64,000 bases of DNA, taken from contig NZ_AUKX01000004.1 in the NCBI RefSeq assembly GCF_000424985.1, forward strand, positions 62,001-126,000, read 5' to 3'. Numbering within the stretch: the stretch's first letter is position 1; each line of letters opens with the position of its first letter. Below are positions 31,973-38,167 of the stretch, in pieces. Source of the stretch: Arenibacter latericius DSM 15913. Lineage in GTDB: Bacteria > Bacteroidota > Bacteroidia > Flavobacteriales > Flavobacteriaceae. The notes beneath the pieces were generated by a model, which was not told the origin of the DNA, did not search any database, and saw only the letters and a program-made list of their open reading frames with translations. Made by a program: the position numbers and the translations under genes.

Positions 31973-32461
31973 ATGCATGTGAAAAAATCATTGTTTGTAT
32001 TATTATTGGCCGTGGGAATGTTGTCTTCCTGTTCGATATCTAAATCCGCTATGAAGGATAGAAAAACTATTGATGGGTATTGGATTTTGAACAGTGTATC
32101 TTACACTGGAGCCCAAGGCACGTTTAAATCACAATTATTCAATGATGCTTCTTCAGATTGTTTTGAGGGAAGTAGTTGGTATTTTAGAAACAATAATAGT
32201 ACAGGAAGCTATGTGTTGTCTAATAGTCCTAATTGTGGTCCAGAAGAGCGTTTTATCCGATGGTCTATTTTAGAGCGAGATGGTTTTAACTCGCAAATCC
32301 AGTTTAAATTTGTTGATGATAAATACAAAGATATTTCTGGTGGACAAGGGTATAGGTTAGACATTGCTTCTTTAAGTGAGACCCATATGAGATTGGAGTC
32401 CAAAGTTTCTGTAGAAGGTACTCCAGTAACTGTAGTTTATGAATTTATAAAAAACGATTAA
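31973..32461 (+). CDS. Lipocalin-like lipoprotein
   Basis: A 162-residue outer-envelope lipoprotein. The signal sequence ends in a lipobox, MLSSC, with Cys at about residue 20. After it the sequence TIDGYWILNSVSYTGAQGTF matches the first strand of the Bacteroidota lipocalin-like (DUF4136/lipocalin_4-type) domain, where the W in GYW is the most conserved residue; CFEGSSWYFRNNNSTGSYVL and YEFIKND at the end are further strands. Ligand unknown. It is separated by 4 bp from the downstream OmpA-family lipoprotein gene and almost certainly co-transcribed with it. Confidence 0.85.
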   Translation: MHVKKSLFVLLLAVGMLSSCSISKSAMKDRKTIDGYWILNSVSYTGAQGTFKSQLFNDASSDCFEGSSWYFRNNNSTGSYVLSNSPNCGPEERFIRWSILERDGFNSQIQFKFVDDKYKDISGGQGYRLDIASLSETHMRLESKVSVEGTPVTVVYEFIKND

Positions 32462-32465
32462 TATA

Positions 32466-33158
32466 ATGAGAAAGTTATTTGTAAGTAGTTTATCCATGTT
32501 AATGATAATGGCAACCATTACTAGTTGTACTGCCATTAAGAATACCAATCACAAACAAAGAGGGGCTGCTGGAGGAGCTGCTGGTGGAGCAGTTATTGGT
32601 GGTGTTATTGGTAATAATGTTGGTAAGGGTAATAACACTGCTTTAGGAGCCATTATAGGTGCTGTTGTTGGTGGAGTTGCAGGAGGCTACATTGGCGATA
32701 GAATGGACCGACAAGCAGAACGTATAGAGGAGGAGATTCCAGGTGCAGAAGTAACACGTGTAGGAGAAGGTATCAACGTTACCTTTAATGAAGATGCAGG
32801 TGTGTATTTCGAAACTGATAAATCTGCAGTAATTGGTGCCTCTGCAACCACATTAAATAAAATGGCAGCGGTATTACTAGAATATCCAAAGACTAATATT
32901 TTGGTAGAAGGACATACAGATAGTGTTGGTGCTGCTGAATATAATATGGGGCTGTCTAAAAGACGTGCAGAGTCCGTTACCAATTACTTGATATCTAAAG
33001 GGGTTTCAAGAGATCGGTTAACCACAAAATGGTATGGGCTAACCCAACCTAAAGCGGACAATTCAACCGTAGAAGGAAGAGCTAAAAACCGAAGAGTAGA
33101 GTTGGCTATCATAGCTAATGAGGAACTAAAGGAAGAAGCTCGTAGAAATACTAATTAA
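32466..33158 (+). CDS. OmpA-family lipoprotein with glycine zipper
   Basis: A 230-residue outer-membrane lipoprotein. The signal peptide ends ATITSC (lipobox Cys at about 21). A glycine-zipper region (about 32-79: GAAGGAAGGAVIGGVIGNNV, then GAIIGAVVGGVAGGYIGDRM) could insert in or cross the membrane. The C-terminal OmpA peptidoglycan-binding domain (about 110-222) contains ILVEGHTDSVGAAEYNMGLS, RAESVTNYLISKGVSRDRL and GRAKNRRVEL, all diagnostic. It lies 4 bp after the lipocalin gene and ends in a strong terminator, so the pair forms a closed unit. Confidence 0.93.
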   Translation: MRKLFVSSLSMLMIMATITSCTAIKNTNHKQRGAAGGAAGGAVIGGVIGNNVGKGNNTALGAIIGAVVGGVAGGYIGDRMDRQAERIEEEIPGAEVTRVGEGINVTFNEDAGVYFETDKSAVIGASATTLNKMAAVLLEYPKTNILVEGHTDSVGAAEYNMGLSKRRAESVTNYLISKGVSRDRLTTKWYGLTQPKADNSTVEGRAKNRRVELAIIANEELKEEARRNTN

Positions 33159-33232: not shown

Positions 33233-34357
33233 ATGTATGATTATGATGTTATTATCATCGGTGGTGGACTTGCAGGATTAACTGCGGCTCTTCATTTGAG
33301 AAAATATCATTATAATATAGCTGTTTTTGAAAGTCTGGAATATCCTCATCATAAGGTCTGTGGAGAATATGTTTCCATGGAAATAATACCCTATTTAGAA
33401 AGTCTAAACGTATCTCTTCCTAAAAACATCTACATAAACGAAATGCTCATGAGTACGGAGAAGGGTACATCCATTAGTGCTCAATTACCTTTAGGCGGAC
33501 TTGGGATTAGTAGATATACTTTGGATTATACTCTTTATAAGAAGGCCATTTTACAAGGAGTTACCATTCTTCAAAAACATATATCCTCTATTAAGTTTGG
33601 AGACCCCACTTTTACAGTTGCAGATACAAGGGGTGGCCACTACACCTCTAAATTTGTTATTGGGGCCTACGGAAAACGAGAGGCATTAGACAAAAACTTA
33701 AATCGCGATTTTATCCAAGGAAAATCGCCCTGGCTTGGAGTAAAAGCCCATTATAAATTAGATTCTTTTCCAGAAAATTTAGTAGCACTTCACAATTTTA
33801 GAGGTGGTTATGGAGGTTTATCAAAAACGGAATCGGGAGCCGTTAATTTCTGTTATTTAGTCTCTTATGATAGTTTTAAAAGTGAGAAAAATATGGAAAG
33901 CTTCCAGCAGAACATACTAGCAAAAAACCCTTATCTAAATAAGTTTATAATGGAGTCCGAAATGCTTTTCTCTAAGCCATTAACCATTGCACAGATTTCA
34001 TTTGGCAAAAAGAGTACTATTGAAAACCATATTTTGATGTGTGGTGATACTGCCGGACTCATACATCCATTTTGTGGGAACGGGATGGCAATGGCAGTGC
34101 ATAGTGCAAAAATGGCAGCGGAATTAATCCACCTCTATTTTACTAAATCAGATTACGATCGTCATCAATTGGAGAAAGAATATAATAGGCAATGGCATAA
34201 AATATTTGGGAAAAGAATATGGGTTGGAAGACAATTGCAAAGGGTTTTACTAAACGAAACTATTTCCCCGAGGGCAATGCAGTTAATTAACTATTCTCCT
34301 TATCTTGTTAGTAAGTTGATTAAGGCAACTCATGGAAAAACAATCGATACGGTATGA
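33233..34357 (+). CDS. FAD-dependent oxidoreductase of the type III PKS operon
   Basis: A 374-residue flavoprotein of the geranylgeranyl-reductase/halogenase-like class. The FAD Rossmann motif is VIIIGGGLAGLTAALHLR (about residues 6-23), followed by the KVCGEYVSMEI segment (about 41-51) typical of this class, and the second flavin motif LMCGDTAGLIHPFCGNGMAM (about 265-284). It could oxidise, reduce or epoxidise a lipid or polyketide intermediate. Halogenase WxWxIP is absent. First gene of the six-gene operon; its stop overlaps the methyltransferase start by 4 bp. Product chemistry is inferred only. Confidence 0.9.
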   Translation: MYDYDVIIIGGGLAGLTAALHLRKYHYNIAVFESLEYPHHKVCGEYVSMEIIPYLESLNVSLPKNIYINEMLMSTEKGTSISAQLPLGGLGISRYTLDYTLYKKAILQGVTILQKHISSIKFGDPTFTVADTRGGHYTSKFVIGAYGKREALDKNLNRDFIQGKSPWLGVKAHYKLDSFPENLVALHNFRGGYGGLSKTESGAVNFCYLVSYDSFKSEKNMESFQQNILAKNPYLNKFIMESEMLFSKPLTIAQISFGKKSTIENHILMCGDTAGLIHPFCGNGMAMAVHSAKMAAELIHLYFTKSDYDRHQLEKEYNRQWHKIFGKRIWVGRQLQRVLLNETISPRAMQLINYSPYLVSKLIKATHGKTIDTV

Positions 34358-35079
34358 ATTTCACCCAGCGTTGCACGGATAAGGAGATGATGGACGACCA
34401 AAATTTGGATGCAGACTCTTTAAAAAATGTTCTCCAAGACATCAATAAGGTCAACAAGATTTTAAACGGGTACTCCATTACACTTAATGCAATTGGAAAA
34501 TTAATTAAGCAGACCCCTAAAAAAAGCTATACAATTCTAGATGTTGGATGTGGGGATGGATATATGTTACGGAAAGTAGCCCATTATTTTAAGTCAATTG
34601 GAATAGCAGTAAATTTAGTGGGTATAGATCTCAATGAAAAGACTTTAAAAATTGCTAGAGCAAATTCTGTAAACTACCCCAATATCAGCTATTTACATAG
34701 GGATGTTTTGTTAATGGATTTAAAGGAAATCCAATGTGATATTATGTTGTGTACCCTTACTATGCATCATTTTAAAAATGATGACATTCCAGAATTCTTA
34801 CGAAAATCTACCTCTTTTGCACAGCTAGGTGTTATTATCAATGATTTACAAAGAAGTAAAAGTGCCTATTACCTTTTTAAAATTTATAGCGCTATTTTTA
34901 TGAAGACAAGGATAGCTAAACACGATGGTTTGTTATCTATTAAAAGTGCCTTTACGAAATCTGAGCTTCAAGAATTCTCCAAATTGTACCCTGAGGCGCA
35001 GCATGAGTTAAGTTGGAAATGGGCCTTCCGGTATCTTTGGATAATAGAATTAAAACAAGAACAACCAATATATGACTAA
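34354..35079 (+). CDS. SAM-dependent methyltransferase of the type III PKS operon
   Basis: A 241-residue class I methyltransferase. Motif I is TILDVGCGDGYMLRKVAHYF (about residues 61-80), then VGIDLNEKTLKIARANS, and CDIMLCTLTMHHFKND as motif IV. It probably O- or C-methylates the product or an intermediate of the adjacent polyketide synthase; the acceptor cannot be read from sequence. It overlaps its upstream neighbour by 4 bp (ATGA type) and the polyketide synthase by 8 bp, so translation is likely coupled through three genes. Confidence 0.9.
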   Translation: MNFTQRCTDKEMMDDQNLDADSLKNVLQDINKVNKILNGYSITLNAIGKLIKQTPKKSYTILDVGCGDGYMLRKVAHYFKSIGIAVNLVGIDLNEKTLKIARANSVNYPNISYLHRDVLLMDLKEIQCDIMLCTLTMHHFKNDDIPEFLRKSTSFAQLGVIINDLQRSKSAYYLFKIYSAIFMKTRIAKHDGLLSIKSAFTKSELQEFSKLYPEAQHELSWKWAFRYLWIIELKQEQPIYD

Positions 35080-36127
35080 TACCAGAATAGTAAGTGTTAC
35101 CAAAGTTTTACCTAGGTATAGTAGAGAAACCAAGGACATATTGCCCCTGGTTGAAGGGTGGTTGCATGAGCAAGAGGATCGATTTAAACGGAAAATCGTA
35201 AAAATTTTTGAGGGAGCAGCAGTAGATAGACGGTATAGTATAATGAGTCCGGAAGAGGTATTTACAGCAACCTCTTTTGAAGATAAGAACAATATATACG
35301 TTCGTGAGGTTAAAAAAATGGGAAGCCAGGCGCTACAAAAAGCCCTGACAGAAAGTAATTGGGATGCTAGTAGTATAGATTTTATTATAACGGTGAGTTG
35401 CACGGGTATAATGATTCCCTCACTGGATGCCTATCTTATAAATTCGCTTTCCCTTAGAAAAGATGTAGTTAGGTTACCAGTTACTGAAATGGGGTGTGCC
35501 GCCGGAATTTCGGGTTTAATCTATGCTCATAATTTCTTGAAATCTAATCCCGGAAAAAGAGCTGCTATTGTAGCTGTGGAAAGTCCAACCGCCACATTCC
35601 AGCTTACCGACTTTTCTATGGCTAATATGGTAAGTGCTGCAATTTTTGGTGACGGAGCAGCCTGTGTATTATTATCTTCAGAGGAATATGCAGTGGGGCC
35701 TCGTATTGTAGGTGAGGGGATGTATCATTTTAATAATTCTACTCAATTAATGGGTTTTAACCTTACTAATTCTGGGTTAAAAATGATTTTAGATCCTGCG
35801 GTACCAGAAACTATTGCAGCTCATTTTCCAGATATTATTCATCCATTTCTAAATGAGCTGGGGAGTAATATTGAAAGGGTAGAGCATTTAATTTTTCATC
35901 CAGGAGGAAGAAAGATTGTGGAGACTGTAGAGCAGTTGTTCGGAAAAATGGGAAAGAATATTGACGATACCAGAGAAACCCTCCGTCGATATGGAAATAT
36001 GAGTAGCGCCACAGTTTTGTACGTTTTAGAGCGCTTTATGGAAAAGAATATTCCCGCGGGGGAGCAAGGGCTAATGTTAAGTTTTGGCCCAGGTTTTTCA
36101 GCTCAGCGGGTGCTTTTAGAATGGTAG
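35072..36127 (+). CDS. Type III polyketide synthase (chalcone/stilbene synthase family)
   Basis: Homodimeric thiolase-fold enzyme that condenses malonyl units on an acyl starter and cyclises the chain. In 351 residues the catalytic triad is intact: Cys142 (TEMGCAAGISGL), His276 (LIFHPGGRK) and Asn309 (YGNMSSATVLYVL), with the gatekeeper loop LSFGPGFSAQ near the C-terminus. Sequence features resemble bacterial alkylresorcinol/alkylpyrone synthases more than plant-type enzymes. Starter is probably a long or modified acyl group on the operon's own ACP or its CoA form. It overlaps the methyltransferase by 8 bp and precedes FabZ- and FabF-like genes. Confidence 0.95.
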   Translation: MTNTRIVSVTKVLPRYSRETKDILPLVEGWLHEQEDRFKRKIVKIFEGAAVDRRYSIMSPEEVFTATSFEDKNNIYVREVKKMGSQALQKALTESNWDASSIDFIITVSCTGIMIPSLDAYLINSLSLRKDVVRLPVTEMGCAAGISGLIYAHNFLKSNPGKRAAIVAVESPTATFQLTDFSMANMVSAAIFGDGAACVLLSSEEYAVGPRIVGEGMYHFNNSTQLMGFNLTNSGLKMILDPAVPETIAAHFPDIIHPFLNELGSNIERVEHLIFHPGGRKIVETVEQLFGKMGKNIDDTRETLRRYGNMSSATVLYVLERFMEKNIPAGEQGLMLSFGPGFSAQRVLLEW

Positions 36128-36192
36128 GTTTATTTCATTACAGAAACATTAAAATAGACGTTGTTGGTAGTTAAATGATTTAAAATTAGAAT

Positions 36193-36639
36193 ATGAGTTT
36201 ACAGCATATCTTAGCGAAACTTCCTTACTCGAAGCCATTTTTATATGTAGACTCGCTAATAGAGATTAATGAAAATTATGCGGAAGGTTCTTATTCCTTT
36301 AAGGAAGATGAATTTTTTTACCAAGGTCATTTTACAGGGCATCCGGTAACGCCTGGTGTAATTTTAACAGAGTGTTGCGCTCAGATTGGCCTAGTAGCTC
36401 TTGGAATCTTTTTATTAGAAAAAGAGGGCGCAAGTTTAAAAAATGTAAAAATTGCTATGAGTAGTAGTCAAATGGAATTTTACTTACCTGTATATCCATT
36501 AGAATTAGTAACTGTAAAATCCGAAAAGGTTTACTTCCGATTCCAAAAATTAAAATGTGAGGTAAAAATGTATAATTCCCTAGGAAAATTAGTCTGTAAA
36601 GGTAGCCTGTCTGGAATGCTTAAAAAAGAAACACCATGA
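36193..36639 (+). CDS. FabZ-like 3-hydroxyacyl-ACP dehydratase of the PKS operon
   Basis: A 148-residue hot-dog-fold dehydratase. The active-site strand reads QGHFTGHPVTPGVILTECCA (about residues 44-62), with catalytic His46 and Glu60 as in FabZ (GHFPxxPxxPGVLxxE). It would dehydrate 3-hydroxyacyl-ACP during chain extension. The flavobacterial housekeeping FabZ is normally fused to LpxC, so this stand-alone copy is probably dedicated to the cluster. A 65-bp gap follows the polyketide synthase, the largest gap in the operon; a 4-bp overlap links it to the ketosynthase. Confidence 0.9.
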   Translation: MSLQHILAKLPYSKPFLYVDSLIEINENYAEGSYSFKEDEFFYQGHFTGHPVTPGVILTECCAQIGLVALGIFLLEKEGASLKNVKIAMSSSQMEFYLPVYPLELVTVKSEKVYFRFQKLKCEVKMYNSLGKLVCKGSLSGMLKKETP

Positions 36640-37913
36640 AAGGTAGAGTCGTTATTACGGGTTTAGGGGTCTGTGCTCCAAATGGAGTGGGACTTTCCAA
36701 CTTCTCTCACAGCCTAAGCTTTGGTATAAGTGGTATTCGTTTTCATCAACAATTAGCAGACTTAGGTTTTGGATGCCAAATTGCAGGAAAACCTGAAATA
36801 ACTGATCTTCAGATGGACACTTATTTTTCGCCTTTAGAGCGTAAAGGATTAAATAGCAGTGGTTTGGTATATGGCGTTATGGCTGGGACGGATGCTTGGG
36901 GAGATGCCGGATTTAAACCAATGGGGAAGGATCATCCAGACTGGGATAGTGGGATTATTTTTGGAACCGGTATTCTAGGGACCGATAAATTTAGAGAGTC
37001 AATTTATCTTATAGATAATAAAAAAACACGCCGATTAGGAAGTACGTCAGTAATGCAAACCATGGCTAGTGGGATAAGTGCTTATTTAGGTGGAAAATTA
37101 GGGTTAGGTAACCAAATTACAACTAACTCATCGGCCTGTGCAACTGGTACAGAAGCTATTATTCTTGGAATGGAGCGTATTAGATCTGGAAAGGCTAAGG
37201 TAATGTTAGTAGGGAGTTGTAGTGACAGTGGGCCTTATATATGGGGCGGATTTGATGCCATGCGTATTCTACCCACACAATATAATAATGATCCCATGAG
37301 AGCGAGTAGGCCAATGAGTGCTACTGCTGCAGGATTTGTTCCTGGAAGTGGAGCAGGGGCTTTGGTGTTAGAATCTTTAGAGCATGCTATGGCGAGAGGA
37401 GCTACCATTTATGCTGAAGTATTAGGTGGGGCTGTTAATAGTGGCGGACAAAGAGGTAATGGTAGTATGACTGCCCCTAATAGTGAGGCGGTACAACGGT
37501 GTATTAAAGAGGCTCTTTCCGATGCTAAAGTAATATATAAAGAGGTAGATGTAATTAACGGGCATCTTACAGCAACTTCTAAAGATGCCGAGGAAATTAA
37601 GAACTGGAGTGAAGCACTAGGACGATCGGGTAAGGACTTTCCCTATATCAACGCTACTAAGGCGCTAATTGGTCATTGCTTGGCAGCTTCGGGTAGTGTA
37701 GAGGCCGTTGCTAGTATTCTACAATTTAAAGAGGGAAAGGTTTTTGGAAATAATAATTGCAGTGATTTACACCCAGAAATATTAAAAATAGTGGATGAAT
37801 CCAAAATTCCATTAAAAACTATATCATATAACTCAAATATTATAGCTAAAGCTAGTTTTGGTTTTGGCGACGTTAATGCTTGCGTTATATTTAAGGCTTA
37901 TAAACCTAATTAA
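36636..37913 (+). CDS. FabF-like beta-ketoacyl-ACP synthase of the PKS operon
   Basis: A 425-residue decarboxylating ketosynthase. The Cys-His-His triad is intact: Cys168 (NSSACATGTEA), His310 (INGHLTATSKDAEE) and His347 (ATKALIGHCLAASG), with Lys342 in the same region. It extends acyl-ACP chains with malonyl-ACP. The N-terminus VVITGLGVCAPNGVGLSNF is the usual KAS II opening. Being next to a dedicated ACP and dehydratase, it probably builds or modifies the starter chain used by the type III synthase; no ketoreductase is present, so FabG from primary metabolism may be borrowed. Confidence 0.93.
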   Translation: MKGRVVITGLGVCAPNGVGLSNFSHSLSFGISGIRFHQQLADLGFGCQIAGKPEITDLQMDTYFSPLERKGLNSSGLVYGVMAGTDAWGDAGFKPMGKDHPDWDSGIIFGTGILGTDKFRESIYLIDNKKTRRLGSTSVMQTMASGISAYLGGKLGLGNQITTNSSACATGTEAIILGMERIRSGKAKVMLVGSCSDSGPYIWGGFDAMRILPTQYNNDPMRASRPMSATAAGFVPGSGAGALVLESLEHAMARGATIYAEVLGGAVNSGGQRGNGSMTAPNSEAVQRCIKEALSDAKVIYKEVDVINGHLTATSKDAEEIKNWSEALGRSGKDFPYINATKALIGHCLAASGSVEAVASILQFKEGKVFGNNNCSDLHPEILKIVDESKIPLKTISYNSNIIAKASFGFGDVNACVIFKAYKPN

Positions 37914-37915
37914 TT

Positions 37916-38167
37916 ATGACCAACCAATCTCATTACGAAATTTTAAAAGAGATCGTTAAAATATATTTACCCGAAGATGTATCCGTTTCGGATATTACAG
38001 AAGAGAGTAATTTTACATCAGAGCTTAATATTAACTCCGCTAATTTGGTCGATATTATTTTGGACGTAGAAGATGCGTTTGGGATAACCTTGGAAAACCA
38101 GGATATGGATCAGATGAAAACAGTTAAAGATGCTTTAAGAATTGTAGAACAAAAGTTAGTCGAATAA
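37916..38167 (+). CDS. Dedicated acyl carrier protein
   Basis: An 83-residue carrier protein with the 4'-phosphopantetheine site at Ser41 in ELNINSANLVDIILDVEDAF; housekeeping ACPs have DSLDT-type surroundings, so NSANL marks a specialised copy. The helix II and III region (about 40-80) fits the four-helix fold. It begins 2 bp after the ketosynthase stop, the last gene in the operon. It should shuttle the growing chain between the ketosynthase, the dehydratase and possibly the type III synthase. Confidence 0.93.
   Translation: MTNQSHYEILKEIVKIYLPEDVSVSDITEESNFTSELNINSANLVDIILDVEDAFGITLENQDMDQMKTVKDALRIVEQKLVE

Follow-up and report, generated by a model that had tools for sequence, protein, structure and literature searches.

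A type III polyketide synthase operon with its own fatty-acid-synthase-like genes in Arenibacter and related Flavobacteriaceae

Six genes and their proteins

We analyzed a 64,000-nucleotide stretch of Arenibacter latericius DNA (Flavobacteriaceae; contig NZ_AUKX01000004.1), hereafter the window, which carries an operon of six genes, all on the + strand at positions 33233-38167, in which a type III polyketide synthase (T3PKS) is encoded together with putative tailoring enzymes and a small module resembling a fatty acid synthase (FAS). The operon begins with a flavin adenine dinucleotide (FAD)-dependent oxidoreductase (374 amino acids (aa), 33233-34357), which matches the Pfam FAD/NAD-binding oxidoreductase families and carries a GGGLAG motif, followed by an S-adenosylmethionine-dependent methyltransferase (241 aa, 34354-35079; Methyltransf_25, 56.3 bits) and the T3PKS (351 aa, 35072-36127). 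After a 65-bp gap (36128-36192), which is the site of a FabL-like enoyl reductase gene in most of the named relatives described below, come a FabZ-like 3-hydroxyacyl-acyl carrier protein dehydratase (148 aa, 36193-36639; PF07977 (FabA-like), 49.1 bits), a FabF-like ketosynthase (KS; 425 aa, 36636-37913; ketoacyl-synthase N and C domains PF00109/PF02801) and a free acyl carrier protein (ACP; 83 aa, 37916-38167; PF00550 (PP-binding), 28.2 bits against a cut-off of 20.8). All six open reading frames (ORFs) were confirmed at the coordinates and spacings (-4, -8, +65, -4 and +2 bp, in order) given in the original prediction, with agreeing Pfam families and zero internal stops, as were the catalytic residues that it had named, namely Cys142/His276/Asn309 in the T3PKS, Cys168/His310/His347 in the KS and Ser41 within NSANL in the ACP. 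Purifying selection acts on every gene, with ratios of nonsynonymous to synonymous substitution (dN/dS) of 0.065-0.155 between the window and A. certesii.

The T3PKS matched both of its Pfam domains, PF00195 and PF02797 (Chal_sti_synt_N and _C; 85.4 and 72.2 bits), above their cut-offs of 27, while its best NCBIfam match was DpgA at 174.7 bits, far below the cut-off of 425. A Foldseek search with its model returned type III PKSs as all best matches, with Pks11 and CylI the nearest; by both sequence and fold the nearest solved relative was Pks11, deposited as an alpha-pyrone synthase, with CylI nearly as near. The FAD protein best matched TIGR02032, the geranylgeranyl-reductase superfamily, at 98.1 bits (cut-off 158.8), and its AlphaFold model (confidence score, pLDDT, 89) found 3nix, PltA and ChlB4 as best Foldseek matches, placing it in the flavin monooxygenase/halogenase fold class; identities were 12-19% among the 50 matches listed, and the fold does not fix the reaction. 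We predict that this enzyme oxidizes the ring. A halogenase reading, suggested by the fold matches PltA, ChlB4, Bmp2 and PltM, was rejected, because the halogenase motif WxWxIP is absent and W167-L-G-V-K-A-H stands in its place. The methyltransferase scored 148.4 bits against NF004851, below the cut-off of 243.

In the FabZ-like dehydratase the His and Glu are intact (GHF, ECCAQ), with NCBIfam FabZ scores of 59.8 bits against a cut-off of 113 and 55.9 against 155.15. The KS scored 264 bits for TIGR03150 (FabF), below 493.75, and shares 35% and 33% identity with the two other strong PF00109 genes of the genome. Where a KS usually has N-x-HGT-x-T, the one in the window reads NGHLTAT, and NGH[L/I/M]TAT was found in 76/76 homologues. 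Similarly, Ser41 of the ACP lies within LNINSANLVD; the canonical ACP motif is DSL, and the genome's other stand-alone ACP, adjoining a FabF-type gene, has ADSLD. NSA, and with it the modifiable Ser named in the original prediction, was kept in 76/76 ACP homologues, so that the atypical ACP and KS motifs are family traits.

Co-occurrence of the FAS-like genes with the synthase

A pattern scan of named genomes returned at least 554 stretches encoding a T3PKS relative, and gene content was taken from the best 80 of these (the named loci). The FAD, methyltransferase and T3PKS genes were present in 80/80, and FabZ, FabF and ACP genes in 79/79, 79/79 and 76/76 of the loci whose contig reaches far enough, all misses being on short contigs that break off ahead of the gene concerned (L159 for FabZ, FabF and ACP; L130, L164 and L176 for the ACP only). 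The six-gene order, which the original prediction had proposed to seek in Bacteroidota genomes, was found in all 32 additional relatives fetched, and all six genes were present in 12/12 further clade loci, so that the grouping is no coincidence; some of the genomes concerned are represented among the 80 named loci too. In a phylum sample of 395 Bacteroidota genomes, with cut-offs of at least 66% identity for the T3PKS clade and at least 61% for the cluster-type KS, the two marked an identical set of 33 genomes. The earlier proposal that the FAS-like genes belong with the T3PKS was thus borne out, since the clade loci show no separation of the two: among the loci examined, we saw no clade member with sufficient contig that lacked the FabZ-FabF-ACP module. 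The T3PKS clade occurs in 18/18 genomes of the genus (its own included), in 15/43 other genomes of the family and in 0/39 of other families of the order; three of the 33 clade genomes belong to two other families.

Beyond this clade, T3PKS matches are common and distant. Any match at E<=1e-20 was found in 174/395 genomes, the majority of these, 28-36% alike, falling outside the clade; in the window's own family, all 30 genomes with such a match carry a T3PKS that belongs to this clade. Across eight further Bacteroidota T3PKS loci (29-36% identity), homologues of FabZ, FabF or ACP were lacking within about 6 kb (0/8). One of them, L121, has a T3PKS-methyltransferase-FAD arrangement with a homologous methyltransferase (32%) and FAD protein (36%) and no FAS genes; hence, the triad also occurs on its own, and the module goes with a single clade. 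On plasmid records, T3PKS identities were about 31-35% among the 30 matches listed of 178; of three such loci opened, two adjoin an isoprenylcysteine methyltransferase and the third is without annotation. KS matches on plasmids were all below 37% identity among the 12 listed of 42, and were named FabF/FabB or not named.

The surroundings of the operon are conserved as well. Upstream lie a lipocalin-like and an OmpA-type gene (31973-33158 in the window; in relatives, at about -3100 to -1900 with respect to the T3PKS), of which the former was found in 72/80 and the latter in 73/80 named loci, a long-kept synteny. Downstream of the ACP gene, 21/80 named loci carry a PF01648 phosphopantetheinyl transferase (PPTase) homologue (as in L044, L049 and L055), with a median gene overlap of 4 bp, and 31/80 carry a homologue of a 143-aa protein that in L042 (9904-10335) directly follows the ACP, is hydrophobic by eye and has no Pfam match; this protein perhaps belongs to the operon. 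Neither homologue follows the ACP in the window; at other sites, the window's genome contains two PF01648 genes, one of which shares its contig with 1504-codon frames that include carrier-protein domains. The operon is interrupted by extra ORFs at the FabZ/FabF junction in L053 and at the T3PKS/FabZ junction in L049, L051 and L113, and one cluster KS homologue (G182:C2:180172-181440) contains an internal TAA stop.

Homologous cassettes also occur in other settings. In 5/38 KS-bearing genomes of the phylum sample, a KS of 45-50% identity lay away from this T3PKS clade, and all five loci (L223-L227) had FabZ, FabF and ACP homologues, three with an enoyl reductase and two with a PPTase. In L223 (6077-12411) and L224 (6095-12275), a cassette of enoyl reductase, FabZ, FabF, ACP and PPTase stands head to head with dialkylresorcinol (DAR) genes; DarB (634.8 bits, cut-off 550) and DarH (453.7, cut-off 300) were identified in L223, and the assignment of L224 was judged from ORFs similar to those of L223, DarB having been scored in L223 only. 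The ACP motif of both is LKINSAN, with NSA as in the T3PKS-linked ACPs. In L226 (5285-9649) and L227 (5624-9874, assigned by likeness to L226), FabZ-FabF-ACP is flanked by GNAT-type and glycosyltransferase-2 genes, and in L225 (6723-11872) the same three genes, with an enoyl reductase, lie downstream of GNAT-type and glycosyltransferase-2 genes; here the ACP motif is NSM (L225) or DSF (L226, L227). A BioF/Kbl-family pyridoxal-phosphate-dependent acyltransferase is encoded nearby in L225. The GNAT-linked loci resemble a third lipid pathway that draws on the cassette.

Loss and retention of the enoyl reductase

The gap between the T3PKS and FabZ genes is occupied in 70/80 named loci by a short-chain dehydrogenase/reductase (SDR) gene, a candidate FabL-like enoyl reductase. 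For the SDR of L042, the best NCBIfam family was FabL (146.6 bits, below the cut-off of 328) and the best PDB match 3oic, also FabL. The FabL motif is Y-x6-K, and it was present in 63/63 SDR ORFs resolved among the 70 loci with a match. The ten named loci without the gene are seven from Arenibacter, that of Maribacter antarcticus (L139) and two from uncultured genomes (L195, L201), and a tree of 72/80 named loci plus the window implied at least four changes in its presence. In L139 and L201, degraded pieces of the C-terminal part of the enoyl reductase persist in the gap (E 1.06e-6 and 2.55e-6), compared with a best E of 9.7e-5 in 20 sets of shuffled gaps, and these point directly to loss in situ. 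The 65-bp gap of the window gave no match at E<=1; the seven other Arenibacter gaps tested either gave none or reached 0.057 at best, as shuffled gaps also do. A copy that had moved elsewhere in the window's genome was considered and rejected: the best-scoring match had 25% identity, so the gene is absent rather than relocated. The absence of an enoyl reductase noted in the original prediction therefore stands for the window's genome and does not extend to the family.

Because the enoyl reductase occupies the same position in both DAR-linked cassettes and in one of the three GNAT-linked ones, and because two remnants persist, the comparison argues that the gene may be ancestral, an argument weakened by the phylum sample, in which only 12/33 clade genomes have it (E<=1e-45). 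As all six genes of the window are under purifying selection, the module remains in use where the enoyl reductase is missing.

A candidate phenolic-lipid pathway and its alternatives

We read the locus, at a probability of roughly 60%, as a phenolic-lipid operon that supplies its own acyl chain. We favor this because the KS, FabZ and ACP genes co-occur with this T3PKS and are missing at the eight other T3PKS loci, because a PPTase gene follows the ACP in part of the named loci and the cassette adjoins DAR genes elsewhere, and because the T3PKS model lies nearest to Pks11 and CylI, the FAD model has the monooxygenase/halogenase fold and a FabG above cut-off is encoded elsewhere in the genome. 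In such a pathway, the FabF-like KS and FabZ-like dehydratase, together with the cell's FabG, would assemble a chain carried by the dedicated holo-ACP, with enoyl reduction in Arenibacter supplied by the cell's own enoyl reductase or not at all. Cys142 of the T3PKS would then take the chain from the ACP, and the enzyme would add malonyl-CoA units and close a resorcinol (or pyrone) ring, which the methyltransferase and flavoprotein may methylate and hydroxylate to yield a methoxy-alkyl (hydro)quinone-like lipid. We infer this hand-over, ring type, tailoring order, product and role.

The published systems, compared here by description from the available parts of the reports, supply both the precedent and the contrast. 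The triad of methyltransferase, oxidoreductase and type III PKS is already known from single operons such as hidABC (hierridin) and its planctomycetal counterpart (PMC10896814, PMC8086630), and from srsABC/pkqABC of Actinomycetota, which lead to alkyl-benzoquinones (PMC9927152); the original prediction knew of no product for similar clusters, whereas the triad thus has known products elsewhere. The new part is the dedicated FabZ-FabF-ACP module: hidABC and the planctomycetal operons are described as three genes, to which the window adds FabZ, FabF and ACP as fixed partners, and the available text on srsABC/pkqABC mentions no private FAS module (PMC9927152). A second premise of that prediction, that type III synthases normally act independently of a carrier protein, has published exceptions, namely ArsB/ArsC, germicidin synthase, SCO7671 and CylI (PMC6274091, PMC8086630). 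A C14 acyl-ACP was proposed as the starter of HidC (PMC8086630), and both CylI (cylindrocyclophane) and germicidin synthase were reported to use ACP-bound chains (PMC8086630, PMC6274091), although the CylI chain comes from type I PKSs, unlike that of the FAS-II-like module proposed here (PMC8086630). The type III PKSs of the Azotobacter ars operon (ArsA, ArsB, ArsC) receive chains from a dedicated FAS by way of an ACP (PMC6274091); that ACP forms one domain of ArsA, a type I fatty acid synthase, whereas in the window the proteins are discrete and type II-like and the ACP is free-standing. A carrier protein or FAS is encoded beside the synthase in the Ars and Cyl cases, as it is in the window's clade. 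The DAR clusters of L223 and L224 share the homologous cassette with this clade, but their ring is made by DarB, a KASIII-type enzyme, in place of a T3PKS, and the window's genome gave 0 DarB matches above cut-off. No product of such a Bacteroidota cluster is described in the literature searched, most subscription papers lying outside that search.

Several observations weigh against our interpretation. The operon has no ketoreductase, and an enoyl reductase was found in it in 0/17 relatives of the genus and was absent from 21/33 clade genomes of the phylum sample. None of the six proteins reached an NCBIfam cut-off among the matches listed (for the FAD protein, 25 of 58 families), so that names such as FabF or FabZ are not proven for any of them. 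The conserved flanks and vertical inheritance make some of the co-occurrence expected. The planctomycetal triad makes alkylresorcinols without any FAS genes, its synthases being ascribed acyl-CoA starters, unlike the ACP-fed starter proposed here; the same source leaves the role of the FAD oxidoreductase open and judges the G. maris methyltransferase to be probably a C-methyltransferase, so that the tailoring proposed for our operon is likewise tentative (PMC10896814). Ring type is not readable from the T3PKS either. At the position three residues before the catalytic His (His-3; Leu273 in the window), which alignments with Pks11 and CylI suggest to be that of ArsB Trp281, 73/75 synthases have Leu and 2/75 have Phe, residues that differ from those of both ArsB (Trp) and ArsC (Gly), and we dropped a ring-type prediction by that rule. 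A Trp at this position was noted for Srs/Pkq-type synthases, apparently corresponding to Leu273, and is also present in Pks11 (PMC9927152); since Pks11 was nonetheless deposited under the name of a pyrone synthase, the rule does not hold cleanly.

The proximity of Pks11, the missing Trp and the geranylgeranyl-reductase family match of the FAD protein would fit a variant with an alkyl-alpha-pyrone as the ring and with the chain as the target of the flavoprotein. Given that the resorcinol-making CylI is nearly as near and that, in the available parts of the reports, the triad is associated in other organisms with resorcinols and quinones (PMC9927152, PMC10896814), we regard this as unlikely, with odds that overlap with those of the phenolic-lipid reading, of which it is a form. 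The order of events could also be reversed, with the T3PKS making a small aromatic starter that is methylated, oxidized and loaded onto the ACP and then extended by the KS and FabZ to an aryl-polyene-like chain. DpgA as the best NCBIfam match of the T3PKS points this way, as does the lack of an enoyl reductase in the genus, which would leave double bonds; the enoyl reductase of most named loci does not fit a polyene, however, the genes scanned with Pfam include no AMP-ligase, and the cluster contains only one KS gene and lacks a chain-length factor, and we therefore consider such a route improbable. Equally poor odds attach to the possibility that the two gene sets are neighbors only, the synthase using ordinary acyl-CoA and the FabZ-FabF-ACP genes making a different lipid: planctomycetal triads that yield alkylresorcinols without such genes (PMC10896814) and homologous cassettes away from this T3PKS would allow for it, whereas the constancy of the module in the clade, with genes that, apart from one gap, overlap or lie almost end to end, speaks against it.

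The observation behind the original prediction was confirmed, and its interpretation was partly supported and extended. The strongest hint that the cassette may serve to make a chain for a neighboring enzyme comes from the loci in other settings. We tentatively suggest, while holding it rather doubtful as a whole, that Bacteroidota possess a portable chain-building cassette (FabZ, FabF and an atypical ACP, with enoyl reductase and PPTase optional) that may serve unlike head-building partners, namely the T3PKS with methyltransferase and flavoprotein, DarB, or the GNAT/glycosyltransferase genes; on the same joint reading, the Flavobacteriaceae product would be an ACP-fed polyketide quinone for the membrane or respiration, not for warfare, and loss or retention of the enoyl reductase would tune its saturation.

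Type III PKS clusters were the second most frequent predicted class in surveyed Flavobacteriaceae, with 9% of clusters (PMC7440613), and one study found at least one in every Aquimarina genome (PMC9323603), as far as the available parts of these reports go. If a small discrete FAS-II-like line indeed feeds the T3PKS, the operon would offer a compact system for studying ACP-to-type-III-PKS transfer. The recurrent loss of the enoyl reductase provides a natural experiment on chain saturation.

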